Assembly (NCBI GenBank): GCA_009780345.1
Contig: WRAG01000018.1
Span: forward strand, 1-47,275
Direction: 5' to 3'
DNA: 47,275 nucleotides
Source: Oscillospiraceae bacterium
GTDB lineage: Bacteria > Bacillota > Clostridia > Monoglobales > WRAG01
Every line of letters begins with the position of its first letter. The first letter of the stretch is position 1. A model generated the notes under the pieces. It was not told the origin of the DNA. It did no database searches and saw only the letters and a list, made by a program, of their open reading frames with translations. The position numbers and the translations under genes were made by a program. Below, piece after piece: positions 8,510 through 34,605 of the stretch.

Positions 8510-8752
8510 AACATACCCTCCCTTATCATAATAAAATTTATAATGCCGGAACACGGCAATCGACTGTACCTTGTTCCCTCCCCTTCACCTTGGGGCGCAA
8601 AATAATTGTTTTCACTAAATACAACCTCTTAAAGCACCGAATCGGGGACAAACTTAATTGACTTTTCACCGACGTAATGTTCGACCCGGTCCAACCGTCA
8701 AAAAATAGCGCAAGGCTTTAAAATTCAAGCCTTGCGCTATTTTTTAAGTATG
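8510..8752 (-). other. Leader/intergenic region upstream of the giant sortase-anchored gene
   Basis: This region holds the terminator of the upstream gene and about 190 bases of leader. On the minus strand the leader contains small hairpins, GCCG-TGTTC-CGGC and CCCC-AAGGTGAA-GGGG, just before the ribosome-binding site. No convincing promoter or known riboswitch core was identified. Confidence 0.4.
8701..8745 (-). terminator. Strong terminator after the giant SLH protein gene
   Basis: The arms at 8701-8718 and 8727-8744 are perfectly complementary over 18 bases, with core AGCGCAAGGCTT, an 8-base loop and flanking A and T tracts. It lies immediately beyond the stop of the minus-strand gene at 8753. 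Confidence 0.9.
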
Positions 8753-11700: not shown

Positions 11701-14020
11701 ACAACGCGGGCGAATTCACGCTAAACGGAATCCGATATATAAACTCAATATATCTATCTCCCGGATAGTAAAACACGGGAAGGCCCGTTACGCTGTTTAT
11801 ATATCCAATATTCCGATAAACAAGATTTCCATTCATCCACCGAGGTGTTCCGTTCATGATCTGCGACCGGAAAATTTCCTCAAATATCAACATATGCCTA
11901 ACTTCCGGATTCGCAACGTCGGGAACACTCCATACTTTCGCATGGAATATGGTGTCATCGTTTACGCCCCAATCGGCGGGATAGCCTAACAGTTCTTTAG
12001 TAATCGTCATGTTTCCTGAACTGTACTTATATCGATTGGTCATAGTTATAACGATGGTTTCGTCAAAATGCAATTTCCTTGTTCCGTTGTTATCCGAATA
12101 CGCGACGCCCCAAACCCAATCATCGTCAGCGTTCCAAGCATTTTGATCGATTATTTCTTCTACATACTCCCAGTGTTCAAGCCAAACCTCTTGTATCCAA
12201 GCGCCATCTGTCCAAACGCCGCCCGACGTCGAATTGCGGTCAAGATCAATGTTATTCCAAAACGCCGCCCATTTCGCTTCTATCGGCTCGTTAACCGTCG
12301 GACGAACCTCGCGCACTTCATATCTTCCCCACGTCCACAAATTGGAAAGTGTGACAGGATTGCTGACACTGATCGGAATTTCCAATATGGGCGTGCCCCC
12401 AAAATCTTCGTCTAAACCGAAAACATGGTCGCCAATGTGCCGAAAACTGCCATCAGGTTCTTGATAATCCTTGAACAGCAGATAGTTGTCGTGATCAACG
12501 TCCCAAATCCGCACAAAAAACACGGTGTCGTCGTCAACGCCCCAATCCGCCGGAAATCCGTCAAAAAATTTGTGAATTTCCAAATATCCTATACCGTGGA
12601 GGAATTCGTTTGTTACCGTTACATATTCAGTTTCGTTTTCCGTGACTTGAAAACCGTTCGCGCCAAAACTATACGTCACAATAATTCGGTCGGTGTCGTA
12701 ATCAAGAATCTCTTCCACAAAATATCTTTTAATGCGTGCGTTCGGCAAAGGCGTCTCTCTCACCGGCATTTCCGCGATTATGGCAGGATTGTCTTCCGAA
12801 AACGTGATTACGGTTGTCAGTTCTCTATAGCGAACAAGCCCGGTATATGTGAATGTATTGATTCCCGGCTCGACGCTAAATGTTAAGTAATATCCATCTT
12901 GGTTCGTCATAATCGCGCTAAACTGTGTTTCGGCGCCGACGCCCCAATCTTCTTCAAACCAGCCTTCCAAAATTTTATTAATCTGCAAATATCCAACCGG
13001 CAATATGTATTCTTGTAGCTGAATTTGCGCGATAATATCCAATCGAGAAATAATCGCCGCTCCGTCCCAAGTAAAATGCGTGTCCGGATTGTCCGGCTCG
13101 ACACTTCTGTGGAAATATTCTTCACTTATAATGGTTCTGCCGCCCGGAATAGATGTGTTTCCGCCCGGATTTGGAAAAACCAATTCATATCTAATATTCG
13201 TTCCCGGCCCTTCCGCGTCTCGAATGGTAAAAAAATGTGATTTAGGGCCGCCGCCTCTTGTCCATTCAAGATGCCAATAGTATAGTTGGCCATTAATCAC
13301 CGCATTATTAGCCCAATGTGCGGGGAAAGTCGATTGATCGGCGGTTTGTTCAGCCGGACTGCGGTTCGCGCCTAAGGAAATGGTGATTCCAAGTATGTTA
13401 TCCATAATCATTCCGTTGTTAAAACCGTTGCCGTTATTCCAACTTACGCTCGCGTCAAACGCATTAAATGTCGTCTCTTTCCGCGTCCAATAAAAAGGAT
13501 TTCCCTCGGCAGGATAAAACCTAACGTCCGCCGCGCCACTTGAATACCAATAACCTGTTCTCCAGTCGGTTTCGTCTAAAAAAATGATGTAAGAGACTTG
13601 CGCCGGCGCTGGTCCGATTATATCATCTTGATGAATTCTCCAAATTGCCGTATTGCCGGCACCGGCAACAACTCCGGAAGGCAACGCGCCAAGATGAAAT
13701 TCGCCTATATGATCGGTAATGGTTACATATTCATCACTTTCGCAAAGAGGCATTCGGGCGTTTCCGGAAGTGTCAACATATGTGCTTCCCCACGCTTTAA
13801 GGGTTATTGTCGCGGTTCCATCACCATTGTATTCTACGGATTTACCCGTCCAAATTTCGCCGTCCCTTAAACTTGCGGGCGGCACAGTTAACACAGGTGT
13901 GCCGTCGATGATATCAAAGTTTCCGATATTCGCATAAGAAATGAGCGAAATTTGTCCGAAAATTCCGAAAATAAAAATTAAAGCCATCGAAAGTACCAGC
14001 ACTTTTTTCACGTTTTTCAT
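8753..14020 (-). CDS. Giant SLH-anchored surface protein with five InlB-type repeats
   Basis: This 1755-residue secreted protein begins at an ATG preceded by AGGAG. Residues 1-30 are a signal peptide. About 345-1090 hold five modules opening with patterns like YLEIHKFFDGFPADWGVDDD or NMTITKELLGYPADWGVNDD (DUF5979-like, related to those in the neighbouring giant). About 1095-1530 hold five InlB B/Flg_new repeats of 81-85 residues, each with YDGNGNTGG...FIGWNTERDG...VTLYAQWEP. Two of these are nearly identical in DNA. Three SLH domains (about 1535-1700; TRAEVVMIFYRLL, TRRELAAVVSRF, TRAELVTAVNRML) and a half-repeat end the chain. SLH domains bind pyruvylated secondary wall polymer, so the protein should sit on the wall surface. 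The modules suggest adhesion; ligand unknown. It is transcribed alone. Confidence 0.87.
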   Translation of the reverse strand: MKNVKKVLVLSMALIFIFGIFGQISLISYANIGNFDIIDGTPVLTVPPASLRDGEIWTGKSVEYNGDGTATITLKAWGSTYVDTSGNARMPLCESDEYVTITDHIGEFHLGALPSGVVAGAGNTAIWRIHQDDIIGPAPAQVSYIIFLDETDWRTGYWYSSGAADVRFYPAEGNPFYWTRKETTFNAFDASVSWNNGNGFNNGMIMDNILGITISLGANRSPAEQTADQSTFPAHWANNAVINGQLYYWHLEWTRGGGPKSHFFTIRDAEGPGTNIRYELVFPNPGGNTSIPGGRTIISEEYFHRSVEPDNPDTHFTWDGAAIISRLDIIAQIQLQEYILPVGYLQINKILEGWFEEDWGVGAETQFSAIMTNQDGYYLTFSVEPGINTFTYTGLVRYRELTTVITFSEDNPAIIAEMPVRETPLPNARIKRYFVEEILDYDTDRIIVTYSFGANGFQVTENETEYVTVTNEFLHGIGYLEIHKFFDGFPADWGVDDDTVFFVRIWDVDHDNYLLFKDYQEPDGSFRHIGDHVFGLDEDFGGTPILEIPISVSNPVTLSNLWTWGRYEVREVRPTVNEPIEAKWAAFWNNIDLDRNSTSGGVWTDGAWIQEVWLEHWEYVEEIIDQNAWNADDDWVWGVAYSDNNGTRKLHFDETIVITMTNRYKYSSGNMTITKELLGYPADWGVNDDTIFHAKVWSVPDVANPEVRHMLIFEEIFRSQIMNGTPRWMNGNLVYRNIGYINSVTGLPVFYYPGDRYIEFIYRIPFSVNSPALLIDLPVGDDYNYIVEEFFDDGVVTDHINITYTFNNGEPIPVGGIKVSGDKNSSLIVNVRNEYAYGTGNLVVVKELAGFPEDWDVYEFTEFFVAVREVGSNEFLKFSPQLNGTMRYIPADKSYVGDTVWLLPFSAANPIIITELNSNLVYEVVELCKDGKCIYDIFAIGFEVEINYDRSAFSEGGNMIATVINRFEHGFGTLRIKKALVNASSPIDDDYWFYAQARDSASTYHLLFVLEDEAENLWRHVGNTSDWDEADGETGIVDRIPFSVSNYATIINLWSGRVYVIEELPGVHTAIHEPLGIMWNGDVLTSLITNHFPPNQAPSFSVTYDGNGNTGGLPPVDDLEYYEGENVVILGRNDLVRTGHVFIGWNTEREGDGEWYQPGDMLTMRDHDVTLYAQWEPWEPIYETFTVMYDGNGNTSGSAPIDNLEYYEGETVVILGRNDLARTGHVFIGWNTEREGNGEWYQPGDMLTMRDHDVTLYAQWEPRGPVPYVFTVTYYGNGNTGGFVPIDALLYYEGETVVIMDRNDLVRAGYRFLGWNKQRHGCYSLRRPGYTFAKANKNVYLYAQWEPVNITAPPVFKVTYDGNGHTGGEPPVDANEYEAGDVVTALNRGDLVKSGHNFLGWNTERDGSGEWRQPSSSFTMPNRDVTLYAQWEQTGGGGPTTVPRITEPPLYTVTYNGNGHTGGSPPVDGRRYRSGETVTVLDSGNLSRSDYRFIGWNTQSDGSGNWYQLSDTFTMPTGNVTLYAGWQPVAPTRWDFFTGEHIWYIRGYENTEMRPDNYITRAEVVMIFYRLLRPEMRVVQSNVTFVDVASDDWFGLGVSVLAYHGIFTGYETGEFRPHAHITRRELAAVVSRFDRLLESDTSPYADVTSDDWAYKYILSATEKGWFVGYGGLFRPEFNLTRAELVTAVNRMLERYIALEDIPDDVFNFPDLDRTHWAYAAFMEAAHSHTFERIDDSINETWTAILGTGLDAPYNQ
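9430..10740 (-). repeat. Tandem intragenic repeats encoding five InlB-type modules
   Basis: The plus strand shows CCCA[C/T]TGCGCGTA-like starts near 9725, 9985, 10240 and 10495, with a more divergent copy near 9430. The copies at 10240 and 10495 are 255 bases (85 codons) apart and almost identical at the DNA level. This suggests recent duplication or gene conversion inside the giant SLH protein gene. Confidence 0.8.
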
Positions 14021-22207: not shown

Positions 22208-23827
22208 TTACAGCGCCAACATACCATATATAATCCTCGCCGCCTGCGCGCGTGTTGCGTTGCTAAGCGGACGGAATGTTCTGTCCTCGAAACCATTGAT
22301 GATTCCGGCTTGCTGCATTGCGTTTACTGCGTCAGCCGCCCAAGACGCGATGTCGGCTTGGTCTATAAATTCTTGCGTCGCATTTGTTTGAGGCAAGTTT
22401 TCAATCGCTCTTGTAATCATAACAGCCATTTCTTGACGAGTGATGTTTGACTCCGTTCCAAATGTTCCGTCGTAATGGCCGAGGATAATTCCGGCATTTA
22501 CCGCACTTGCAACCGATGTAAACGCCCAATGTGTCGTGTCAAGGTCGGGGAAATTTACCGTTGCGCTTTCGTCGTAAATATCGAGTGATGATACCAACAT
22601 TCTCGCGAACTGCTCGCGTGTAACATTGTAATCAGACGCGAAATGTGTCGCGCTGATTCCGTTTAAGATTCCACGCTCAACAAGCGACATAATATATCTA
22701 TACGACCAATGTGACGGCGGCAAGTCTGCGAAATCAGGACGCCCGGTATGTTCTCCGTCCGGTTCAGCTATAAGAGGTACTCCGTCGATTGTAACACTCC
22801 ACTCATTTGCAGAGATTGTCGCGATTACAAATTGCGAAGTCGGTAATGCATTATCAATAACATCAAAGTGGTCGAATCCTATTCTACCGATTGGCGTTTC
22901 AAATTCGGTTGAGAAAACTAACGACATAAGCGCAAGTTCAACTGCCTCAACGGGCATGCGTATGATGAACGTCGTAATATTCGAGCTTGCGTCAAATCTA
23001 ATGTTAAGTTCGCTATTCGTTTCACCAAACGCGCGTGCAAGTAAATTTTCCACTTGCTGTACGGTTAACGTATAAGTTAAAGTGTCATTTTGCACTGACG
23101 GAGGAGTGATTACTGCGGTTGTGTTGTCGTTATCGTTCCCTGTGCCCGGTTGTTGTACGGGTGGCGGGTTAAACGGAGTATCACTTGCCGTTACTGTAAG
23201 CGATTGAACATTTACCTGCGAAAAATATTCGCTTGGTATTGCCGTCATAGTTCCCGGCGGTGCAAAAGGCAAAAAATCCGCGCCGCCCGGCGCTGTAGTA
23301 TCATAAGCCGCATCACCTTGAACCGCAAACCGAATATCAGCATCACCCTCGCCAACCGCAATGAAATTAACTGTTATAAGAGTTTCATTAACAATTGCGC
23401 GTGGTCTTGCATTATTAAACATCAATCGAATAAGTCCGTTTTCATTGTCAATTGCGGGATATTGCGGATTTTCAAATATTCCGCCGTTCCAAAATAGTGG
23501 TTGATAATTTTCGGCCCATTCATTGCTTAAAGCCTGTCCCGGCGTTAATCCAACACTTCCGTTCCGCACTTGAGCGGCAGTTTTAGCGCCTGAGCGCACA
23601 AGGTTTCCGACATTGTCAATCACTTGAACAACATCAGCATTAAAGTGAATTGGCACGGTGATAAAATTCGGTGTTACGTTTTGCACTCGAATCGTTGCAG
23701 AAATTAAGTCTCCAACCTGTGCCGTTGTTCTGTCAAGCTCAATTGAAATGACCGAATCTGCCGCAAATACAGGAATTGCGGTTGCTAACATTACTAAAAC
23801 TACTACCAAACATAATATTTTTCGCAT
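22208..23827 (-). CDS. Secreted cohesin-like protein with three SLH domains
   Basis: This 539-residue protein starts at ATG 23827 behind AAGGAGAG. Residues 1-22 are a signal peptide (ending VFAAD). Residues about 24-205 match the cohesin fold pattern: DRTTAQVGDLISATIRVQN, then VPIHFNADVVQV, then GLIRLMFNNARP, and a late hydrophobic strand with VNFIAVGEGDADIRF. A middle region (210-355) is not recognised. Three SLH domains follow (359-539; TREQFARMLVSSL, TRQEMAVMITRAI, TRAQAARIIYGML). The architecture is that of an anchoring scaffoldin: SLH binds the wall polymer while cohesin receives a dockerin partner. It is last of four consecutive cohesin-like genes. The cohesin call rests on pattern only. 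Confidence 0.8.
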   Translation of the reverse strand: MRKILCLVVVLVMLATAIPVFAADSVISIELDRTTAQVGDLISATIRVQNVTPNFITVPIHFNADVVQVIDNVGNLVRSGAKTAAQVRNGSVGLTPGQALSNEWAENYQPLFWNGGIFENPQYPAIDNENGLIRLMFNNARPRAIVNETLITVNFIAVGEGDADIRFAVQGDAAYDTTAPGGADFLPFAPPGTMTAIPSEYFSQVNVQSLTVTASDTPFNPPPVQQPGTGNDNDNTTAVITPPSVQNDTLTYTLTVQQVENLLARAFGETNSELNIRFDASSNITTFIIRMPVEAVELALMSLVFSTEFETPIGRIGFDHFDVIDNALPTSQFVIATISANEWSVTIDGVPLIAEPDGEHTGRPDFADLPPSHWSYRYIMSLVERGILNGISATHFASDYNVTREQFARMLVSSLDIYDESATVNFPDLDTTHWAFTSVASAVNAGIILGHYDGTFGTESNITRQEMAVMITRAIENLPQTNATQEFIDQADIASWAADAVNAMQQAGIINGFEDRTFRPLSNATRAQAARIIYGMLAL

Positions 23828-23860
23828 TTATATTACTCTCCTTTTTTAGTGTTACATTTT

Positions 23861-23902
23861 ATCTACACATTACCTGCAGGCATCTACACATTACCTGCAG
23901 GC
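23861..23902. repeat. Perfect 21-bp tandem duplication at a gene end
   Basis: ATCTACACATTACCTGCAGGC, split here as ATCTACACATT plus ACCTGCAGGC, occurs twice in direct tandem (23861-23881 and 23882-23902). The inner copy encodes the last residues and stop of the 23884-26697 protein (...PAGNV-stop). The other copy repeats the same codons just downstream, including a second stop. It does not change the protein. Confidence 0.9.
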
Positions 23903-26697
23903 GCGTAAGTTTCTGTCGCCTCATTCCAAACATAAAGCTGTTCACCAAAGTTAACGTCTACTCCCGGGCCTGTCCAGTTTTTAAGAGGCTGATTCTGATA
24001 TCTTCGTTCAAAGTCATTAGAAATGGTTGCTTCTTGCATTGCGTAAAATGCCCAATGGTATCTTGGCAAATCGGGCCAATCAATCAACATCCACTCTAAA
24101 GCGCCGTAGTTGTCCAAAACACGATACAAAACACGGTTAATCAATGTTACAGCCTCTGCACGAGTGATGAACTGATCCGGTCTGAAAGTGCCGTCCGGAA
24201 ACCCTGCAACCCAACCGCGTTCTGCGGCTGATGCAATAGAGGTCTCTGCCCAATGCCCTGCAACATCAGAAAAACTGTGTACTGCACTAGGTGATAAATT
24301 GTCAAAACGCATAGTCATTGTCGCGAATTCCGCACGAGTTATAGGCGCTGTCGGCTCAAAATAGCCATACAATCGTCCTTGCACAATTCCTGCGCGTTGC
24401 ATTGTCGAAATCTGCTGATTCGACCATCTATCTGCATAAACGTCGGGGAATGTGTTGATAAACGCGCGATTTGTATTCCGCGCTTCTGTCGTCAACAAAC
24501 GGAAGAATATGGTCGCAACTTCTTCGCGAGTAATCTGTGCCTCGGGTCGAATTGTGCCGTCCGGGAACCCGAAAATATATCTATAATGATGTTCATGTTC
24601 AAGCATAGAACGCACATATCGGAACGTAATCACGTTTTGAGAACCGTCTGAAACCGTAGTTATAGTTTTTGTGCGGTCATCGTCTAATACAAAACCCTCC
24701 AAATTCGGAGCAGTTGCCGTTTGCGTTGAACCAATTTGCACTTGCGTTATTACTTGGCGATAAATTTCGTTTCCATCTTCATCTATTCCTCGGATTGTGA
24801 TTGTGGTCATTGGAGCCGTGACAGTTCCACCACCGCCGCCACCCCAACCACCACCGCCGCCGGTTTGGTTTCTAATGTAAATAAAGTTTTGGTTAACTTG
24901 ATTGTATGTTACCGATCCAAGTGTTCTGTTTGCCGGCGATACAATCCAATCGCTTTGTGCGGGCGGCGTAATTACAACACGTGCGCCATACGGAATTTCT
25001 GTGATAATATAGTTTCCGTTAGCGTCGGTATTTACTGTTCCTGCTCTGTATTGAACGCCGTCTATCGTTATGGTATAGCTAACAGGTTGGTTTGCAACAG
25101 TTCCGCCTGCCAAATTACCTGTTATGGTGAATACGTTATCGCTTATCCATATTGCGCGTAAAAAAGTATGTTCAAGTATAGGAGTATCAAAATCAAATAG
25201 TGCATTAGTGGTTTCGTCAACCCAACCGCCGAACGTGTAACCCGGTCTTGCGGGGAAATCCACGCCTATTTGCGGCTCGTCAACCATTTCGCCAACTCTT
25301 ACTATTTCCCAAAAAGTCGATCCTGCATTTGTGAATACAACAATTCGTTCATCTACACTCATACCATCCGGCAAAATGAAAACATCTTGATAAACAGGGA
25401 GTAGTAATTCGCTATAAAGAGCGTTTGGTGTATCGGGATGTGATAAAGTTCCTCTAAATACGAATTCGTATAATCCCGGAACATTTGGGTCGAAAGTTCC
25501 GATAGGTTCCCAATTTTGTGTTACAACAGTAAGCGTTACAGGGTTCACTATTCCGTCACCCACAAATAATCCATATCCGGGCGGTATGGTCGGTCTGCCT
25601 ATAACACGAATTCCTAAAACTCCGTCAAGGGCCGGATGCCAATTAGTGATTGCGCTCGCCGCGGTTCCGAGCGGAACAAAAATTAAAGTTGAAGGCTGCG
25701 CAATTACAATTACTAATTCTGTTTCAAATTCGCCGGGATAACCAAGTGTTGTTGTACTTTCAGTTCTGTTCGGCTCAGTTGCGGCAGCGTAAAATCTATC
25801 GTTTGTCACCAAATTAAGCGACACATTGTAAAATATGACATAACCGTAATTATTTAAGATATAATCTCCCGCGCCGCCTGCAATAGGATTGCCCATAGCT
25901 CCTGCGTTATCATATAACCTTATAAACGCTCCCGGAGCCGGACCGCCTTGTGAAACGTCGCTTCTAACAATCACCGTCGCGGTACCGTTAGAGTTTTCGT
26001 GAACGATTACTTCGGTCGGCGGAGATGTTCTGTCTCGCACGATTTGTAAAGGAGCAATAGCAGTCGCAGGATAAACAGCCGGAATTTGTATCATACCGCC
26101 TGCATCTGTTATTCTTTCACGCACTCTAACTCCGCGTGGCAGCCATTCATCGTGGGTCGTAGAAAAAAACGGTGTAAAGTTACCGGTTTCAACAGCTCTA
26201 AAGTATAACGTCGCAACTATTCCATTTGGTAATATGCTCGTATTTATAGGCGGATTTGCCATGTTTTGTAATCGTATAAGCAAAGATACAAACCCGATTT
26301 CAACATCAAACCGCGGCCAATGTCCGCCGCCGCCCAATAGTGTATCATCTGCAGTATGCAATACTAAACCGCCGTTCACGCGCACGTTATCACGAACGGG
26401 CGACCCTGCTATTACAGGATTATGATTCGTGGTTGCGTCGAGCAATGTAACCATTTCCGGGTCATATGCAAAAGGAAGATAAATGCTTGAAAGAGTAGCT
26501 ATATTTTCAAGATGAAAATTCACGGCGAATATATCACCGACATTTATCGTGGTTACCTCTGCGCCGTTTACGGTTACGGTAGTTCGTACTAATCGTTCAG
26601 CACTCATTTCCGGCTGTGCTGTTGCGGGCAAAATATAAAATTGTGTAACTAACAGTATGCAAGCAATAAGCACCCCTATAATTCTTTGGATTCGCAT
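23884..26697 (-). CDS. Multidomain cohesin-like surface protein with InlB-type and SLH domains
   Basis: This 937-residue protein starts at ATG 26697 behind AAAGGAGAA. Residues 1-28 are a signal peptide. About 33-225 are cohesin-like (VTTINVGDIFAVNFHLEN, then YLPFAYDPEMVTLLD). About 437-519 is an InlB/Flg_new-like module (RPGYTFGGWVDETTNALFDF). About 520-610 resembles a Cna-B-type beta sandwich, followed by a poly-glycine linker (GGGGGWGGGGGG, near 616-630). A MucBP-like module (ITIRGIDEDGNEIYRQ) precedes three SLH domains (about 702-885) and a half-repeat that resembles the end of the giant SLH protein (8753-14020). It is third in the cohesin cluster. An SLH-anchored scaffold is the likely role. 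The cohesin call is by pattern; the SLH call is firm. Confidence 0.8.
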   Translation of the reverse strand: MRIQRIIGVLIACILLVTQFYILPATAQPEMSAERLVRTTVTVNGAEVTTINVGDIFAVNFHLENIATLSSIYLPFAYDPEMVTLLDATTNHNPVIAGSPVRDNVRVNGGLVLHTADDTLLGGGGHWPRFDVEIGFVSLLIRLQNMANPPINTSILPNGIVATLYFRAVETGNFTPFFSTTHDEWLPRGVRVRERITDAGGMIQIPAVYPATAIAPLQIVRDRTSPPTEVIVHENSNGTATVIVRSDVSQGGPAPGAFIRLYDNAGAMGNPIAGGAGDYILNNYGYVIFYNVSLNLVTNDRFYAAATEPNRTESTTTLGYPGEFETELVIVIAQPSTLIFVPLGTAASAITNWHPALDGVLGIRVIGRPTIPPGYGLFVGDGIVNPVTLTVVTQNWEPIGTFDPNVPGLYEFVFRGTLSHPDTPNALYSELLLPVYQDVFILPDGMSVDERIVVFTNAGSTFWEIVRVGEMVDEPQIGVDFPARPGYTFGGWVDETTNALFDFDTPILEHTFLRAIWISDNVFTITGNLAGGTVANQPVSYTITIDGVQYRAGTVNTDANGNYIITEIPYGARVVITPPAQSDWIVSPANRTLGSVTYNQVNQNFIYIRNQTGGGGGWGGGGGGTVTAPMTTITIRGIDEDGNEIYRQVITQVQIGSTQTATAPNLEGFVLDDDRTKTITTVSDGSQNVITFRYVRSMLEHEHHYRYIFGFPDGTIRPEAQITREEVATIFFRLLTTEARNTNRAFINTFPDVYADRWSNQQISTMQRAGIVQGRLYGYFEPTAPITRAEFATMTMRFDNLSPSAVHSFSDVAGHWAETSIASAAERGWVAGFPDGTFRPDQFITRAEAVTLINRVLYRVLDNYGALEWMLIDWPDLPRYHWAFYAMQEATISNDFERRYQNQPLKNWTGPGVDVNFGEQLYVWNEATETYAPAGNV

Positions 26698-26761
26698 ATT
26701 TTTGTTCTCCTTTTTTTGTATTTGTGAAACATATCAGTATATGTGAAGCCTTATTAGGCAT

Positions 26762-27727
26762 TTACTTCAAAATTAGCGGTCTAAATATCGGATTCATTGT
26801 TCCAATGGATTCCCATACAAAAACCTGTATCTCTGTATTTCGCATATCATTCGGCAATCGAATATATTGCGTTCGGTCAATGTTGCTAATGGTTACTGCG
26901 TAAAATATTCCGTTGTTACGTACTGCAAGAATTAATATGGCTGAGTCGGGAACATTTTCCCTATTAAGTGTTGCAAAAATCTCATATCCGCCTTGTAGTT
27001 GTGACATATCCATAATCAATGTTCCGTCAGTTTTGAATACTTGCGCTTCTGATTTCGGCAAAAGTACCGACGGTGAAATAAATTGCGGAATTGAAAACGA
27101 TATATTCGGGAAAATGAATTGAGGTGTAAAATCACCTTGTCCCGATCGCGGATAAATTAAAGGATCATGATGCCAATTCGCAGGATTCCCGCCCGGCGCA
27201 GGGCCGTCAGCACGGCGCGATAGCCGAATATCACTATAACCCGCGCCAATCGCTCTCATATATACAGTATATACTGTCTGCCTGCCTACTAAATCGCGAG
27301 GCACATCGCCGCAGTCAATAATTATTCCGATTAAACCTGTTCTGTTATTCAAAAACGGGTGAACTGCTGCGTTTAAAATATCGCCGCCCCAATTATGCGG
27401 CAAAAATGCGTTTCCTCTTATAAAAAAATCTGAACCTCGAATTAGTGATTCCGTAAAATCATCTTGCGTTACAGGATTTATCACCTGCATAACACGCGGA
27501 TTAAAATGTAAGGATACAACGGCGTTCGCAAGACCGTCAAAATCGCTCAAGCTTACCGTTACCCTTATGATGCCTCCGATTTCCAAAGTTGACGGTGCGG
27601 GCAATCCGTTTTGTGTTATATCAATTATAAGTTGCGGCATTTGCGCCGCGTTTGCCGGTGTGAGCGGGATTATTGAAAACATTAGTATAAACGCAAGCAA
27701 TAATGCCGCAAATCTTTTGTGAAACAT
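26762..27727 (-). CDS. Secreted cohesin-like protein without a wall anchor
   Basis: This 321-residue protein starts at ATG 27727 behind GAGGGTG. Residues 1-27 are a signal peptide (ending ANAAQM). Residues about 30-205 are cohesin-like: LEIGGIIRVTVSLSDFDG, VVSLHFNPRVMQVIN, RTGLIGIIIDCG and a late YTVYMRAIGAGYSDIRLS strand. The C-terminal 90 residues form a beta module ending IQVFVWESIGTMNPIFRP, the same type as in the propeller protein at 14316-17351. There is no SLH, sortase or dockerin motif, so attachment would have to come from a partner or from non-covalent retention. It is second in the four-gene cluster, behind a GC-rich intergenic hairpin. Confidence 0.7.
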   Translation of the reverse strand: MFHKRFAALLLAFILMFSIIPLTPANAAQMPQLIIDITQNGLPAPSTLEIGGIIRVTVSLSDFDGLANAVVSLHFNPRVMQVINPVTQDDFTESLIRGSDFFIRGNAFLPHNWGGDILNAAVHPFLNNRTGLIGIIIDCGDVPRDLVGRQTVYTVYMRAIGAGYSDIRLSRRADGPAPGGNPANWHHDPLIYPRSGQGDFTPQFIFPNISFSIPQFISPSVLLPKSEAQVFKTDGTLIMDMSQLQGGYEIFATLNRENVPDSAILILAVRNNGIFYAVTISNIDRTQYIRLPNDMRNTEIQVFVWESIGTMNPIFRPLILK

Positions 27728-27750
27728 AGTTTGTCACCCTCGATTAGTTG

Positions 27751-27773
27751 GGGGCGGGGAAGAACCCCGCCCC
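27751..27773 (-). promoter_or_regulatory. GC-rich intergenic hairpin within the cohesin cluster
   Basis: GGGGCGGGG (27751-27759) and CCCCGCCCC (27765-27773) pair perfectly around AAGAA. It lies between the stop at 27806 and the next start at 27727. No T-tract follows on the minus strand, so it is more likely an mRNA-stabilising or processing stem, or an attenuator, than a full terminator. Confidence 0.5.
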
Positions 27774-27805
27774 TATAAGTATAAATCAATTCATATTGCT
27801 CGATA

Positions 27806-30800
27806 TTACGGTAGTGTTACGGTAATTCCATCAATTACGATAGTTCCTCGGTCTCTTGTCATACCTACGAACCATTGAACTCTACCTAAGTCTCCTGAAT
27901 CAATTCCGTTGATTTCGTTGATGTCAAAGATTGTGCTTTGCTCAACTGTCGTTCCTACCAACGCTCTGATAAGATTAACGTCTGCCAAAGAAATTCTTTC
28001 GCTAACCGACGGAGTGATAAACGCGCCCGCGATTAACCATACAGGGCTTCCGAAGTTAGAAATCTCAATTACATCTTCATCGTCGATATCAGCGTCAGTA
28101 AGATCGATCAAGAATTCAGCGATAAGATAACTTTCCTCACGTGTGTTTTCAGCGTGAAGACCTACACCGATTCTTGTAAATCTCAACATATATCTTTCGT
28201 AATCTTCAACGTCGAAATCAGCAATGTTAAGGTCAACAAGCTCAAAGTTTGTAGTCGTAGCAGTCGCCGCCGCAGTTAAAGGTTGAGTAATCGCCGTACT
28301 CATAACGCTGTTGTCGTAAAGGTCGATAAGTTCAACCAATATTCCCGCGTCAACCACCAACGGGCGAATATCTTCATATTTACCTGAAAGTCGCGCAAAT
28401 CCTGTAAGCGAGAATGTTACATCAGGAACAATCACAGGAATATACTCTTCAACGGTCGGACCTTGGAACGCCGCGTCGATAGGTAGCTGCTCTCTTAGCA
28501 ATGCGCCAAAAGGATTAGCGGGATTGATTACCGTCATATACGCGCCGGCAGGATTCCAAGTCCACCAGTCGTGCGATGTATTTTGAGCAAATCCGGGGCT
28601 TGCATTGTTCGCCGCATCTTCATTTACCGTAAACGTAATCGTCCAAAAATGATGAACGTTCGCAGGAGCCAAAGTTACGTCGCCCACAACCGCAGGAACG
28701 CTAGTCGGAGCCGCATCTTCTCTTGTAACCGACAGCAAGAACTGACCCGCCGCGTTAATTGAGTAAACATCAGACATTGTTCCGATTTGATACGCGCGTC
28801 CCGCAAAATCAAACGCCATATGACCCGCGCTATAGTTCGCATTGTTCGTTCTCGCGCCCCATTCGATGTTTTCAATCGTAATTACATCAGTATCAAACTG
28901 CATAGGAATATACATTCCCGCAAACGGACCAACATCTTGCAACCAAACTTCCATAGTGTAAGTTCCGCCGCGTGTAAGCGTGTCTACTGAAACGCCTGTA
29001 ACGTTCAACGGCGCAAACAAGCCGCCCGCCGCTACTTGCGTAAAGTGGAACATAACTCGTCCGTCGAAAACAGGAAGAGTTTCGCCCGGAGTAACCAAAA
29101 TCGGGTCGTCTTGCCCCGGATCTGACGGATACGGCCATACAGGGATAACAACTCCCGGATAATTCGGCTCGCCCGGTTGAGAATCCCGAGGCTCGCCCAC
29201 TATTGTTCCCACAGGCACCTCTATCTCACCCGCGGGATAAGGCAAATTTACAGTCCAAGTGTCGTCGCCATTATCTTCTCCGTCTCCGCCAACAGGGAAA
29301 GAGACTAAAAGTTCGCCATTTTCGTCACGTACATTAACATTTCCGTTGCCAACATAAATTTCATAGTCTGAACCATCGTCAGAAACAGTCACAGTCGCCG
29401 GACCGTGCGGAGGAACAAGATTAACTGTTACCGTTCCATCGCCGTTATCTTCAATCCAAGAATTACCCGGGATTTCAACTTCACCGCCGTCAGGAAGTGT
29501 TACGGTGTTTGTTTGTCCCCAGAAAACGATGTTTTCCGGCAACCAACGTCCGTTGGCATTTGCAGGATTCGTATGAAGCAATGGTGCTTCATCACCTAAA
29601 AACCATCTATGCGCCCATGAATTTTCTTCAACGTATACAATCGCTGTACGCGGTACATTTTGGAATACATTTGTAGTTTCGATGGAATTCAAATTACCAC
29701 CTACTGATATACTTCTAAGCGGAACATTAAAAAATGCACGCGAACCAATACTAACTATATCCAATAAGTCAATAGATGTAATGGCGGTGTTTTCAAACGC
29801 CTGACTTCCAATAGTTGTTGCGCTATAAGCACTTACACTTCTTACTGATGGGGAATGTAAAAATACTTGAGCAGAAATATATTCCACATTAGGCATATAG
29901 ACACTTACAAGTGAAGGCATTGATCGAAATGCAGAGTGTCCAACAAATGTTGCATTAGGTAACGAAATCAATTCAAGCGACTGATTATATCGAAACACAT
30001 TATTACCAACGAAAATTACGTTAGGCAGATAAACTGATGTAAGATGCTCAGTTCCTCTAAACGTGTCATTTTCAATACGTGTTACGTTAGGCAAATCAAT
30101 TGATGTAAGTGATGTGTAACGAAATGCTCCACTTCCCACAACGGTCGCAGAATACAATGCTGCTGATGTAATTGGGGTGCCGTGGAAAACACTGCTTCCA
30201 ATTGCATCCACATTTGGTAGATCAATTGTTGTAAGCAAGGTTTCGCGAAGAGCACTATTACCCAAAGACGTCACTTCAGGAAAGTCAACTGATGTAAGGT
30301 TTGTATTAAAAAATACATTATTACCAATTCTTGTTACATCTGCCGACGAATATGTTCCCGCAAAAGAAATCGGAACATATAATAAAGTCAATCCAAATGT
30401 TGAATCTTGCTTGTACAATCTGCCATTGTCCATTACATATCCTGCAGGAACTCCGGCAGTAAATGTCAAGCCTGCAAGATTTTCGTTAATTGTAAACGCA
30501 CCCTCGCCTAATCTTGTGATGTGTGCGCCGATTTCTACTGATGTAACTTCAAGTCTGCCTGCTAATACGCCATCCGCAATAGCTGTAATTGGCGTGCCTT
30601 GTAGCATAGTTGGAATCACAACATTTACAAGGTCAGCGGTAACAAGGCCATTGCCTATATCAGCTGCGTTAATATTTCTTAAAACGCCGTTTGCTGTAAA
30701 TCTCCAACCTGTATCTTCACAAAGCATTTCGTATTCGCCCGGCTCAAGACCGTTAAATCCGATACGCAATCCGGTGTCTGGGTTAATTGTGCCTTGCAAA

Positions 30801-30979
30801 GCTACCGGAAATCCGGTGTCGGGATTTCCTTGTGCAAGGTCCGCCCAAGTTGAAAACGCAACTATATCCGATGTTGCTTCTGCGTCGTATATATAATCCG
30901 CGATAGCCATCATTGGGATTACACTAAGTACCATTGCCAACGCTATTACTAACGCCAGCAGTTTTCTTGATTTAACCAT
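27806..30979 (-). CDS. Surface protein with leucine-rich repeats, cohesin-like module and dockerin-like C-terminus
   Basis: This 1057-residue protein starts at ATG 30979; GGAGA lies about 11 bases upstream. Residues 1-27 are a signal peptide. About 126-446 are BspA/LRR_5-type leucine-rich repeats (TSIDLPNVTRIENDTFRGT and similar). A linker with DNGDGTVTVNL follows. About 635-843 is cohesin-like (LTRGGTYTMEVWLQDVG, then MYIPMQFDTDVITIENI). About 860-985 is a beta-sandwich (FSLTGFARLSG...) of the kind that often precedes dockerins. Residues 994-1057 are dockerin-like, with two helices, ISLADVNLIRALVG and IDSGDLGRVQWFVG. The second loop DINEINGIDSGD keeps Asp1, Asn3, Asp9 and Asp12; the first has lost most acidic ligands. 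No SLH is present, so it could be held by a cohesin partner. A promoter lies at the end of the upstream sigma gene. Confidence 0.8.
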   Translation of the reverse strand: MVKSRKLLALVIALAMVLSVIPMMAIADYIYDAEATSDIVAFSTWADLAQGNPDTGFPVALQGTINPDTGLRIGFNGLEPGEYEMLCEDTGWRFTANGVLRNINAADIGNGLVTADLVNVVIPTMLQGTPITAIADGVLAGRLEVTSVEIGAHITRLGEGAFTINENLAGLTFTAGVPAGYVMDNGRLYKQDSTFGLTLLYVPISFAGTYSSADVTRIGNNVFFNTNLTSVDFPEVTSLGNSALRETLLTTIDLPNVDAIGSSVFHGTPITSAALYSATVVGSGAFRYTSLTSIDLPNVTRIENDTFRGTEHLTSVYLPNVIFVGNNVFRYNQSLELISLPNATFVGHSAFRSMPSLVSVYMPNVEYISAQVFLHSPSVRSVSAYSATTIGSQAFENTAITSIDLLDIVSIGSRAFFNVPLRSISVGGNLNSIETTNVFQNVPRTAIVYVEENSWAHRWFLGDEAPLLHTNPANANGRWLPENIVFWGQTNTVTLPDGGEVEIPGNSWIEDNGDGTVTVNLVPPHGPATVTVSDDGSDYEIYVGNGNVNVRDENGELLVSFPVGGDGEDNGDDTWTVNLPYPAGEIEVPVGTIVGEPRDSQPGEPNYPGVVIPVWPYPSDPGQDDPILVTPGETLPVFDGRVMFHFTQVAAGGLFAPLNVTGVSVDTLTRGGTYTMEVWLQDVGPFAGMYIPMQFDTDVITIENIEWGARTNNANYSAGHMAFDFAGRAYQIGTMSDVYSINAAGQFLLSVTREDAAPTSVPAVVGDVTLAPANVHHFWTITFTVNEDAANNASPGFAQNTSHDWWTWNPAGAYMTVINPANPFGALLREQLPIDAAFQGPTVEEYIPVIVPDVTFSLTGFARLSGKYEDIRPLVVDAGILVELIDLYDNSVMSTAITQPLTAAATATTTNFELVDLNIADFDVEDYERYMLRFTRIGVGLHAENTREESYLIAEFLIDLTDADIDDEDVIEISNFGSPVWLIAGAFITPSVSERISLADVNLIRALVGTTVEQSTIFDINEINGIDSGDLGRVQWFVGMTRDRGTIVIDGITVTLP

Positions 30980-31067: not shown

Positions 31068-31096
31068 AATTTATAATTAATTTAATTTTTTGTCAA
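31068..31096 (-). promoter_or_regulatory. Sigma-A type promoter for the cohesin cluster
   Basis: On the minus strand TTGACA (31091-31096) overlaps the stop codon of the sigma gene. TAAATT (31068-31073) lies 17 bases downstream, with an alternative TATAAA at 15 bases. The cluster could therefore be transcribed apart from the sigma gene. Confidence 0.55.
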
Positions 31097-32313
31097 ATTT
31101 GTTGCCGCGCAAACCAAGCGGGAACGTCTTCCGAAGTTATTCGCGGCAAGCTGCTATCCGCTATCTCGTACGTAATCCGGAAATTATTTTGCAAACATAT
31201 CGTATATCCGACATAAATGAAATGTTCGAAATATTCGAGATAGTAAAGCATTTGTGTGCCGAACTCGGTTGACCTTTCCCCGCCGACAAGCCTGAAATCG
31301 TGTTCGTTAATGAAATCAATCAGTTCGGGTCGGCTCGCAATCGGCGTTATAAGGCTTCCGAAGTCGGTTGCGATATAATATTCGCCGTCATAATCTTCAT
31401 AATTTTCATATTCGTCATCGTAAACGATTTCAATTGGGTTGATAAAGTTTTGATTGACGTAATATGTAAAATAAGTACCTGTCGCCAACACCGCCGCGCA
31501 TATTAGTGTTACGCATGCGTAGAATAAGAAGCCCGACGACGCGGTAGTCACGGTGGCGGTAGTTCCTGCAGTTGTTGCGGCGGTTGTTGCCGTTGCTGTT
31601 GCCGCCGCCGCGCCCGCGGCTAATCCAAGTGTGCCGCAAACGCCTTGCCAAAGCGCGTCGCATACTTCCGGCGTGTTAATTGCCTGTGCCTCATCTAATA
31701 GTATCCGTGTAATAACCAGAATAGGAACAATAGCCATAATACGGTTTATCACACCTTTCTCACTTAGGTCGTCGGCATGCGCCCGCAATGATTTCCGCGC
31801 TGTAACTAAACGATTATTTACTGCGTTAACTCCACTATGGGTCATTTCTGCTATTTCTTTTATCGACATTCCTTCTAAATAGAAAAGTAGTATCGCCTCA
31901 CGTTGCTTCGCCGGCAATTCGCTGATCATTTTTGCTATTTCCTGCCGAACATCTTGCCGTTCAAACGCTTCCTCCGGCAAGAAATCCGAATTATCTTCCG
32001 GCAACACTTCTTCATACTCGTCAAGCTCGTCCGCCTCATTGCGATAATTCTTTCGGTGGAAGTCATTGCAAGTGTGCGTCATTATAGTGCGCAGAAATTT
32101 ATGAAACGCCTCCGGGTTTTTCAGTGTTTGAATCTGATTATACAGCTTTATAAGAACCGTTTGCGCCGCATCTTTCGCGTCCTGCTCGTTGCCAAGATGT
32201 TTGTAGCAAAAATAATTAACTGTGCCCCAAATTTCTTTATATAACTCTTCAAAATAAATTTCTTTGTTCTTTTGAACTTTTTTAACCAATCTTACAATTT
32301 CCTTATTTTTCAT
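31093..32313 (-). CDS. ECF sigma factor fused to a transmembrane and extracytoplasmic domain
   Basis: This is a 406-residue protein; ATG 32313 follows GGGAGG (the in-frame start at 32331 lacks a site). Residues about 10-90 are sigma region 2 (NEQDAKDAAQTVLIKLYNQ, FHKFLRTIMTHTCNDFHRKN). About 120-180 are region 4 (LPAKQREAILLFYLEGMSI, EIAEMTHSGVNAVNNRLVTA). A hydrophobic stretch (about 190-207), an Ala/Thr-rich linker and a clear membrane helix (about 262-288) follow, then about 118 residues outside, with an acidic start and no family I recognise. Standard ECF factors are near 180 residues and soluble, with a separate anti-sigma factor. Here switch and sensor appear joined, so release by proteolysis is a plausible inference. 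It lies directly upstream of the cohesin cluster and has its own promoter. Confidence 0.85.
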   Translation of the reverse strand: MKNKEIVRLVKKVQKNKEIYFEELYKEIWGTVNYFCYKHLGNEQDAKDAAQTVLIKLYNQIQTLKNPEAFHKFLRTIMTHTCNDFHRKNYRNEADELDEYEEVLPEDNSDFLPEEAFERQDVRQEIAKMISELPAKQREAILLFYLEGMSIKEIAEMTHSGVNAVNNRLVTARKSLRAHADDLSEKGVINRIMAIVPILVITRILLDEAQAINTPEVCDALWQGVCGTLGLAAGAAAATATATTAATTAGTTATVTTASSGFLFYACVTLICAAVLATGTYFTYYVNQNFINPIEIVYDDEYENYEDYDGEYYIATDFGSLITPIASRPELIDFINEHDFRLVGGERSTEFGTQMLYYLEYFEHFIYVGYTICLQNNFRITYEIADSSLPRITSEDVPAWFARQQI

Positions 32314-32406
32314 AGACTGCCTCCCGATCACACCACTTTTAACATTTTTAATTCCTTATGCCAAAAAATATTAAAAGCACCATTTATTTTGTTCAAACAC
32401 ATCTAC

Positions 32407-32435
32407 ATTATACCACCTTTTTCTACAAATGTCAT
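32407..32435 (-). promoter_or_regulatory. Sigma-A type promoter for the membrane-fused sigma gene
   Basis: On the minus strand ATGACA (32430-32435) and TATAAT (32407-32412) are separated by 17 bases. The -10 is consensus and the -35 has one mismatch. The leader to ATG 32313 is about 87 bases. Confidence 0.75.
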
Positions 32436-32503
32436 CAAGCAATGTAATACAATAATGCCATTTTAAAGTATTCGTTTTTGTAGCTGTAAGTAGTATTCGA
32501 TAA

Positions 32504-32531
32504 TTGACATCATTTGCGTGTTTGATAAAAT
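32504..32531 (+). promoter_or_regulatory. Sigma-A type promoter for the ribbon-helix-helix gene
   Basis: TTGACA (32504-32509) and TAAAAT (32526-32531) have a 16-base spacer. The predicted start near 32538 puts the tandem 22-bp repeats in the leader. Confidence 0.7.
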
Positions 32532-32555
32532 AAATATATAACTCATCACCTTTTT

Positions 32556-32599
32556 ATTGTATAATTATAGGTATAAAATTGTATAATTACAGGTGTAAA
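32556..32599 (+). repeat. Tandem 22-bp repeat, candidate operator
   Basis: ATTGTATAATTATAGGTATAAA-type units (copy 1 at 32556-32577, copy 2 at 32578-32599) are directly adjacent and differ at only two positions. The 22-bp period equals two helical turns, so a protein would see both copies on one face. They lie between the promoter and the start of a ribbon-helix-helix gene, suggesting autorepression. Confidence 0.65.
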
Positions 32600-32612
32600 G
32601 TGGGTGATATTT

Positions 32613-32789
32613 ATGGCTGTGTTCAAACCAACTAAATCCGTGTCGAAATGCGAAAAATCGGTCATTTCTATTCGGCTTGACAAAGACAAATTGGCACAAG
32701 TGGACAGTATTGCACATCAATCAGACATCAGCAGAAATGAATTAATATTGCAATGTATTGATTTTGCTATACGTCATATTAAAAAATAA
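32613..32789 (+). CDS. Ribbon-helix-helix (CopG/Arc-type) DNA-binding protein
   Basis: This 58-residue protein starts at ATG 32613, behind GTGGGTGAT; a GTG at 32604 is too close to that site. The motif VISIRLDKDKLAQVDSIA followed by SDISRNELILQCIDFAIRHI fits a beta strand and two helices of the ribbon-helix-helix fold (strand residues ISIRL contact DNA; SRNE marks the helix-helix turn). Such proteins bind DNA as dimers, often tandem ones, and often repress their own gene. No toxin gene follows in the same direction, so an antitoxin role is not supported. A terminator closes the unit. Confidence 0.8.
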   Translation: MAVFKPTKSVSKCEKSVISIRLDKDKLAQVDSIAHQSDISRNELILQCIDFAIRHIKK

Positions 32790-32818
32790 AATCTGTATCT
32801 GCATAACCTTAGAACAAA

Positions 32819-32846
32819 AGAGGCGTCATTATTGACGGCTCTTTTT
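32819..32846 (+). terminator. Terminator after the ribbon-helix-helix gene
   Basis: AGAGGCGTCA (32819-32828) and TGACGGCTCT (32833-32842) pair with one mismatch around TTAT, followed by a T-rich tract. Confidence 0.75.
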
Positions 32847-32971
32847 GTATACCATTTATGCAAATTATGCAAAATTGGGTCTTTCATTTCCTGCGCCTAT
32901 ATATAACGTCGTTGCAAAACTCAAAAATAGTAGATAAATTTCAAAAATTTTTTTGAATTTAAAAAAAGATC

Positions 32972-33000
32972 TTGAAAATCGTCAAATTTCGTGTTACAAT
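32972..33000 (+). promoter_or_regulatory. Sigma-A type promoter for the acidic surface protein gene
   Basis: TTGAAA (32972-32977) and TACAAT (32995-33000) are 17 bases apart. The leader to ATG 33058 is about 50 bases. Confidence 0.7.
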
Positions 33001-33057
33001 GTTGCCGTGATATGAGTATTTATATTTTGTAATCTAATCGAGAGTGAGAGAAACTTT

Positions 33058-34605
33058 ATGAAAAAAATTCTAAAAATTTTATTGGCATTATTAATAGCAA
33101 TAGCTATGATACTATTGCCAATGTCTGCGATGGGTGTCACTATTACCGTCCCCGCCGGGTCTGTCATCACCACACCTGCGCCAAACGTAGTAAGAGTGGC
33201 CGTCGCTAACGGAACTGCAGTTACTATGCCTGCAATGAATAATATAGTGGTTGCGGATAACGGCAATGGAACATTAACCGTAACTTTGCCCGGCGAGTCA
33301 CCTATTAACATAGTTTCAAGCGGCGGAGATTGGTATGTTGTTTTCTTTAATTCAAACGGCGGAAGTCAAGTGGCAACCCGAATACTCGAAAGCGGAACAA
33401 CAATCGCAAGACCGACAAACCCGACTTTAACAGGACAAATTTTTGTAAATTGGTATAGCAATTCCACGCTCACAAATGTTTGGAATTTTGACACAAGTAC
33501 AGTAACCGGCATCACCACTTTATACGCAAGATGGACACCACAACAGACCGGTGATGGCGGCATATTTATACCACCTCCGATTGAAGAGCCGCCGGCAGAA
33601 GAATCTCCCGAAGAAGATGAACCTTATGAGGAAGAAGAACCCGATGAGGAAGAAATAGAAGAAGATGAGCCAACTGAAGAAGAAATGTCTGACGAGGAAG
33701 AAGCTTACGAAGATACGTCGGATGAAGAATTAGACGAAACCGAACAAGACGACACATACGAGGATTCCCAAGTAAGCGACACCGAATTCGAAGAGTCATC
33801 CGATGAATCGGAAAATTCGACTGACGATATAAGTGACGAGGATAATGAAGAATTGCAAGACGATGAGGACGAAGAGATTGAGCCGACAATCGTTACATTC
33901 ACATTTGCGAATTTCGATAATCCAACCACCGGCAATATTGCTAATTTTAGAATTATCAGTCTTCCGGCGCTAGGATTACAGTTTTTGTCCGGCGAAATAC
34001 CCGCATTCACTCGCGGTGACGGACTTTTTTATACTGTAACTTACAGAACTAATTTGAATAATTCGTTCCGCGTTATGGCAAGTAATATTTCTGCAAGCGC
34101 ACCATTTTCGCTTTTGCCTCCGGGGCTGACAGACAATGAAATTATTACCGAAATAATTCTCGCGTTTGATTCCGTTCCCGGCGGATTCGGAATGGGTGAC
34201 ACAATTGCGTATAGTTTTATGGTATTAGACGAAAACAACACGGCAAATAATTGGTCGGTTATGTTTGGCGAGGCAAGCAGACGCCCCTTTTTAATAAGCG
34301 CCATATCAAGCGACATAAATGAATTATTAAATCGTCAAAACAGCTTCGACGCAGAAACATGGGAACATTTACAATATGTAATCAACTATGTGCAAATAAT
34401 TTTGGACAATCCGAATTCCACAACAGAAGAAATCGAAATGGCATACGCGCTTTTGCAAGAAACGATAAACGAGCTAAATTCTGTATCTTCAATACGATAT
34501 ATAATAATAGCAGCATTTATTTTTGTTCTGTTTGTTTCTTTGATTTTTGTATTGATAAAATTTTGGAAACACCACAAAAAACGAATTGCATCACGTAGAG
34601 TGTAA
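33058..34605 (+). CDS. Membrane-tethered secreted protein with InlB-type repeat and acidic stalk
   Basis: This is a 515-residue protein. Residues 1-24 are a signal peptide. A beta-rich N-terminal region includes ADNGNGTLTVTLPG, similar in pattern to DNGDGTVTVNL in the LRR/cohesin protein. An InlB/Flg_new-like repeat follows (VFFNSNGGSQVATRI...TTLYARWTPQ, about 95-160). Residues about 171-276 are almost entirely E/D/S/T/P and probably form an extended, highly charged stalk. About 277-420 is a beta module of unknown family, and about 425-475 a helical FIVAR-like segment (SFDAETWEHLQYVINYVQ). A C-terminal transmembrane helix (about 481-503) ends in KFWKHHKKRIASRRV. No sortase motif precedes the helix, so the protein is likely held in the membrane. 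The ribosome-binding site (GAGTGAGAG) is weak. Confidence 0.75.
   Translation: MKKILKILLALLIAIAMILLPMSAMGVTITVPAGSVITTPAPNVVRVAVANGTAVTMPAMNNIVVADNGNGTLTVTLPGESPINIVSSGGDWYVVFFNSNGGSQVATRILESGTTIARPTNPTLTGQIFVNWYSNSTLTNVWNFDTSTVTGITTLYARWTPQQTGDGGIFIPPPIEEPPAEESPEEDEPYEEEEPDEEEIEEDEPTEEEMSDEEEAYEDTSDEELDETEQDDTYEDSQVSDTEFEESSDESENSTDDISDEDNEELQDDEDEEIEPTIVTFTFANFDNPTTGNIANFRIISLPALGLQFLSGEIPAFTRGDGLFYTVTYRTNLNNSFRVMASNISASAPFSLLPPGLTDNEIITEIILAFDSVPGGFGMGDTIAYSFMVLDENNTANNWSVMFGEASRRPFLISAISSDINELLNRQNSFDAETWEHLQYVINYVQIILDNPNSTTEEIEMAYALLQETINELNSVSSIRYIIIAAFIFVLFVSLIFVLIKFWKHHKKRIASRRV

Follow-up and report, generated by a model that had tools for sequence, protein, structure and literature searches.

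A conserved cluster of SLH-cohesin genes and a dockerin-tailed LRR gene suggests a surface-display cassette in Oscillospiraceae-like Clostridia

The window, the whole 47,275-nucleotide stretch analyzed here, is contig C18 of the draft genome G000 (2.05 Mb, 59 contigs, 96% complete). Ribosomal protein S2 places this genome, which is from an uncultured gut-type bacterium, among Oscillospiraceae-like Clostridia; its nearest named records are MAGs from the rumen, from the gut of other vertebrates, and from the termite gut. Positions 22208-30979 are occupied by four consecutive open reading frames, A, B, C, and D, all on the minus strand, as are the modules within them, and all with visible signal peptides. 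With 78, 64, and 56 nt between them, they have the appearance of a single operon. Gene A (27806..30979; 1057 aa) codes for a signal peptide followed by BspA-type leucine-rich repeats (LRRs; Pfam LRR_5, E=8e-36), a probable cohesin-like module (28418..29062, residues 640-854), an X-like (CnaB/Ig-like) module (28046..28423, residues ~853-978), and a dockerin-like C-terminus (27854..28045, residues ~979-1042). No SLH or LPXTG-like anchor was found in A. Gene B (26762..27727; 321 aa) codes for a secreted protein with one cohesin (27080..27649) and a short C-terminal domain (FVWESIGTMNP); B of the window has no SLH repeats, and its counterpart in the related genome G005 is SLH-fused. The product of gene C (23884..26697; 937 aa) contains a cohesin (26032..26607), weak List_Bact/MucBP-type repeats, and three SLH repeats (approximately 24046..24459; E=5e-28). 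That of gene D (22208..23827; 539 aa) contains a cohesin with a type II-like predicted fold (23177..23761), a conserved middle domain, and three SLH repeats (22238..22732; E=2.4e-33). C and D thus each combine SLH repeats and a cohesin within one secreted protein, as an SLH anchoring scaffoldin does. Enzyme domains were looked for in A-D and none was found. The initial annotation of this DNA had described four consecutive secreted proteins with cohesin-like modules, two SLH-anchored and one also dockerin-like, and the reading frames, the SLH matches, and the fold and profile data given below all agree with that description.

A short domain whose motif resembles F-x-W-[ED]-S-x-x-x-M-x-P, and to which no Pfam family is assigned, recurs before or after the cohesin of small proteins, at the end of B (window 26762-27000) and at L163 2603-3511, L027 11363-12412, and L023 3741-4550. 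Directly upstream of A lies the gene for a possible regulator, an ECF sigma factor with a transmembrane/extracellular extension (31093..32331, minus strand), which has a 52% identical paralogue directly upstream of a dockerin gene on contig C25. An ECF sigma factor and a divergent Flg_new membrane protein are present in the same arrangement in the window (31093-34605) and on C25 (L034 9638-13589), where both paralogues are ~50% identical and lie upstream of a dockerin gene of the class 2 described below. Since this pair is paralogous at the two loci, surface-sensing sigma factors may act as switches for the dockerin genes. Two giant surface proteins are encoded elsewhere in the window (8753-14020 and 2999-8554), one with five List_Bact repeats and three SLH repeats and the other with a terminal PQTGD-type LPXTG-like signal.

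The HMM searches proposed in the initial annotation gave a clear answer for SLH and a poor one for the other modules. The Pfam cohesin model matched D at 22.3 bits against a cut-off of 24.1 (26.3 bits once neighbors in the frame were counted), matched B at 12 bits, and matched neither C nor A; the Pfam dockerin model did not match A. Pfam/NCBIfam as the sole test of the window modules was rejected as too insensitive. An AlphaFold model of the D module was of good quality (pLDDT 87.5, pTM 0.83), and in a Foldseek search of the PDB its best 50 matches were all cohesins or cohesin-bearing chains, with type II cohesins ahead and 37 matches at E<=0.001. The best match was 4u3s_A (E=1.3e-7, TM-score 0.66 by target length). 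The nine-strand jelly-roll was judged by this fold match, the strands not being counted individually. We conclude that the D module, as modeled, has a type II cohesin fold and is not the generic beta sandwich that the initial annotation had named as grounds for refutation.

The remaining modules were assigned by profile comparison. A profile of D, B, and their relatives (A10) had 16 matches in the PDB, and 16/16 were cohesins (best E=9.8e-12); B by itself matched ScaB cohesins (E=3.4e-4). The C module was recovered with the D/B profile (E=6.9e-7) and aligned with it in hhalign (85%), and a small profile of the C module itself picked ScaB cohesins. By their sequences, then, the B and C modules are homologous to the D cohesin. 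The cohesin-like module of A could be aligned with the corresponding module of 17 proteins of G005, and a low-confidence model of the A tail ranked type II cohesins first in the PDB (E=2.4e-3). Sequence and profile comparison of this module with cohesins gave no significant match; it is probably a cohesin, the least certain of the four. An HMM built from the canonical cohesins of G000 matched the window modules at noise level only, so the window cohesin family appears to be a diverged branch.

The tail of A lacks a Pfam dockerin match, and the dockerin reported in the initial annotation is upheld instead by a family profile, A9, made of 16 X-dockerin rows (A, its paralogues and relatives, and the canonical class of G000). 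In the PDB, A9 matched dockerins and X-dockerin chains (best E=4.2e-6), among them CelS (E=5.6e-6), 5k39_B (E=7.1e-6), 4u3s_B (E=7.8e-5), and 2b59_B (E=2.9e-4); the weak end of the match list includes one EF-hand protein. The alignments with 4u3s_B, 2b59_B, and 5k39_B cover the X region and the dockerin in part, and an X module lies ahead of the dockerin in A, as in type II dockerins. When the canonical rows were removed (profile A12), the matches had E-values of 0.24-0.87 only, and five of the six were X-dockerins, mostly of scaffoldins, aligned in the dockerin region. The full-tail profile A8 had zero matches in the PDB, and hhalign of the A X-dockerin against the canonical class-2 X-dockerins of G000 was not significant. 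In the second dockerin repeat of A, the calcium loop D-I-N-E-x-x-G-x-D-x-x-D is conserved, and the pattern D/N-x-N-E-x-x-G-x-D-x-x-D is found in this loop across genera. The loop of the first repeat is degenerate across genera; its normal ligands are gone, and the last acidic position alone is kept. The AlphaFold model of the tail, mostly of low confidence (pLDDT 52) and best in the X-like module, has helices at both expected dockerin positions and is too poor to serve as proof. Taken together, these results identify the tail of A, with moderate to high confidence, as a divergent dockerin.

G000 has dockerin genes at other loci too, which the initial annotation had named as support and whose absence was part of its second ground for refutation. 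Pfam matches in G000 numbered 11 for dockerin, 5 of them over the cut-off, and 11 for cohesin, 4 of them over the cut-off alone and 5 if D is counted with its neighbors. The whole window set has a paralogue on contig C5, made up of A', in which there are two cohesin-like domains, and B', C', and D', accompanied by one more dockerin gene. The contigs C32, C20, and C10 each have a dockerin gene adjacent to the genes for a cohesin-SLH protein and a small protein that is cohesin-like, and the SLH proteins have Pfam-grade cohesins (36-41 bits). Besides the window, G000 therefore has at least four cassettes of dockerin, cohesin, and cohesin-SLH genes, and some eight other dockerin proteins. The class-2 dockerin proteins share a near-identical tail with canonical calcium loops (DLNDDGQINVLD) and are encoded on C1, C2, C25, C31, and C44, with fragments on C20 and C51; their remaining domains are List_Bact and Ig-like repeats. 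A contig search with A as the query found no relatives. On C40 (L028 1263-6606) and C2 (L029 6250-9832), proteins with a C-terminal cohesin-like module, one of them with LRR-like repeats, adjoin proteins of the subtilisin-like serine protease type, possibly a separate cohesin-protease pairing.

Outside G000, relatives of the D cohesin among 100 related genomes were found in G005, G008, G018, and G078, and relatives of the A-type X-dockerin in G005, G008, and G018. The receptor family is sparse, occurring in 4/51 genomes of the order and 10/391 of the class. G005, a 1.5-Mb genome of a different family, keeps the A-B-C-D order on its contig C10, with all three cohesin proteins bearing SLH repeats; the order thus recurs on C5 of G000 and in G005, and in pieces in G018. 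The gene at the A position in G018 has the dockerin type of the G005 cargo and adjoins the cassette cohesin, which links the two. In G078, from another family, the gene for a near-canonical dockerin protein lies near genes for an SLH protein and a D-type cohesin-SLH protein. Contig C2 of G008 (L168 1793-15955) has three consecutive genes for X-dockerin proteins of 1000-2200 aa; the D-type cohesin gene of G008 is located on a different contig. A-type tails are most numerous in G005 (about 31; 32 matches with a broader profile). Among 18 long proteins with such tails that were scanned, nine had beta-helix repeats, six BspA LRRs, and one TSP3 repeats; a CAZy or SLH domain was found in none. The cargo is thus LRR, beta-helix, and Ig-like both at the window locus and among the dockerin proteins of G005, in line with the initial annotation, which had called it adhesive and not hydrolytic at this locus.

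Domain content, the fold of the D model, the conservation of gene order, and the inventory of cargo were observed directly in this analysis. We think it likely that A-D form a cohesin-dockerin surface-display cassette, in which SLH-anchored cohesin receptors dock LRR/adhesin-type proteins through their X-dockerin tails. C and D would be held at the wall by their SLH repeats, each presenting one type II-like cohesin, and A, with its LRRs and no wall anchor, would be docked onto C or D by its C-terminal X-dockerin. B would be a secreted single-cohesin adaptor in G000 and an SLH anchor in G005. A further dockerin protein could bind the cohesin-like module of A itself, so that short chains might form. 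From the pattern of modules and genes we infer cohesin-dockerin binding and the pairing of partners; the adhesin-type cargo (LRR, beta-helix, Ig-like) makes adhesion or surface coating the likely job of the cassette. The initial annotation had proposed a surface scaffold of the cellulosome logic. The cohesin folds are real and other dockerin genes exist, but "scaffold" overstates the case, since one cohesin per receptor looks like monovalent anchoring and not like a multivalent array.

The sharing of a cohesin-like module and a dockerin in one tail by A and by 17 cargo proteins of G005, whose tails align as cohesin-like–X–dockerin, could also mean that the tail mainly chains A to A, the dockerin of one copy binding the cohesin-like module of its neighbor to give a fiber of which C and D are merely the base. 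However, the cohesin-like module that would be bound in this way is the more divergent one and the least cohesin-like of the set, and the tails encoded on C5 and in G008 are arranged non-identically; we regard a predominantly chaining tail as unlikely. In the 17 G005 tails, mean pairwise identity was 75% for the cohesin-like module, 81% for X, and 87% for the dockerin. The dockerin is therefore the most constrained module, as expected if one receptor is common to many cargos.

The same figures bear on the idea that nothing docks at all, with the cohesin-like modules being structural beta-sandwich spacers and the tail of A a degenerate EF-hand-like cap. Pfam scores at or under the cut-off, the first dockerin repeat of A without calcium ligands, and the weak cohesin assignment in A would all suit spacers. 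On the other hand, the fold search matched cohesins specifically, the dockerin is the best conserved module in the 17 G005 tails, and its calcium-loop positions are kept across genera. Moreover, receptor and dockerin genes occur together at all five of the SLH-cohesin loci found in G000 (C18, C5, C10, C20, and C32), as well as across families; in our rough judgment, made with no computed test, this is unlikely to be due to chance. Spacers without docking are accordingly a rather improbable account.

GH9 was found in none of the four genomes examined for it, and GH5 in neither G000 nor G005. A multi-cohesin CBM scaffoldin was not seen among the cohesin matches of G000, and in place of the dockerin-bearing cellulases or hemicellulases of a cellulosome we found cargo that is non-catalytic, with one exception. 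This is the class-2 dockerin protein of C2 (L030 7879-13035), in which a TIM-barrel-like domain after the dockerin matched a putative GH97 structure (E=1.3e-5). It is the sole enzyme-like dockerin protein seen in G000, where no CAZy catalytic domain was found in the other dockerin proteins scanned. The absence of enzymes reported in the initial annotation is thus true at the locus, with this one enzyme-like dockerin protein elsewhere in the genome, and the candidate statement that no dockerin protein carries an enzyme was rejected. A reduced or specialized cellulosome-type complex, with catalytic subunits encoded at other loci or in the part that the 96%-complete draft lacks, is very improbable, since the GH97-like domain and the subtilase-like neighbors of the C40 and C2 cohesin-like proteins are outweighed by the lack of GH9 and GH5 in G000 and G005, by the absence of CAZy catalytic domains both from the 18 dockerin proteins scanned in G005 and from the rest of those scanned in G000, and by the single cohesin of each receptor.

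Sortase was absent from G005 and G008, and three sortases were found in G000. In G000 and G005, SLH repeat matches numbered 110 and 86, and given this abundance docking would supplement direct anchoring and would not be the sole route to the wall. The notion that dockerins replace all other wall anchoring in G005 was rejected for the same reason.

Cohesin-dockerin pairs have been studied almost wholly as assemblers of enzymes. The SdbA and ScaB/ScaA anchoring systems of the C. thermocellum and A. cellulolyticus cellulosomes likewise use a type II cohesin fold for anchoring and have an X module directly ahead of the dockerin, and ScaB/SdbA-type type II cohesins are the best structural matches of D. 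In contrast to clostridial cellulosome anchoring, no cellulases or CBM scaffoldin were seen here, each protein has one cohesin, the dockerin is divergent, and the cargo is LRR, beta-helix, and Ig-like. In Ruminococcus flavefaciens FD-1, dockerin proteins bear LRR, transglutaminase, and serpin domains, and it was suggested that some group 4 dockerins may structure the cell surface (PMC2930009). LRRs are found on dockerin proteins there as here, but within a large enzymatic cellulosome (PMC2930009), whereas here non-catalytic cargo dominates and is accompanied by its own conserved receptor cassette with SLH anchors. ScaO-type and C. pasteurianum proteins have C-terminal Coh-Doc tails (Coh1-Doc1, and FN3 repeats with Coh2-Doc2), and are long extracellular proteins that end in a cohesin and a dockerin (PMC11557425, PMC5590126), as A probably does too. 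Such proteins are few per genome, some with undescribed partners (PMC11557425, PMC5590126), compared to about 30 in G005, and the tails studied here differ in that they contain an X module and have a receptor operon linked to them. In the parts of the reports on ANME archaea and syntrophic SRB that we drew on, cohesins and dockerins occur with surface/adhesion domains and have no role in cellulose use, a non-cellulosic adhesion-domain use like that proposed here; those systems are from other phyla, their cargo consists of solute-binding proteins and S-layer domains, and those parts make no mention of a four-gene SLH cassette (PMC9012536, PMC10553843).

Non-cellulosomal cohesins and dockerins, LRR-dockerin proteins, and Coh-Doc tails are already known, so that systems of the kind proposed in the initial annotation are not new as such. 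What is new relative to the literature compared is a conserved SLH-cohesin receptor operon with largely non-catalytic dockerin cargo, for which we found no precedent. About 31 Coh-X-Doc tails are encoded in the 1.5 Mb of the sortase-less G005, and a broader picture, to which we would grant a little less than an even chance, is that in a small-genome lineage of Clostridia one conserved SLH-cohesin operon accepts dozens of interchangeable LRR/beta-helix proteins through a single kind of Coh-X-Doc tail, possibly with chaining into fibers. If the docking reading is true, these loci would be a source of divergent, probably orthogonal cohesin-dockerin pairs for protein engineering, and the cohesin-dockerin lock-and-key would be a general tag for surface attachment, with a defined set of modules on which this can be tested.
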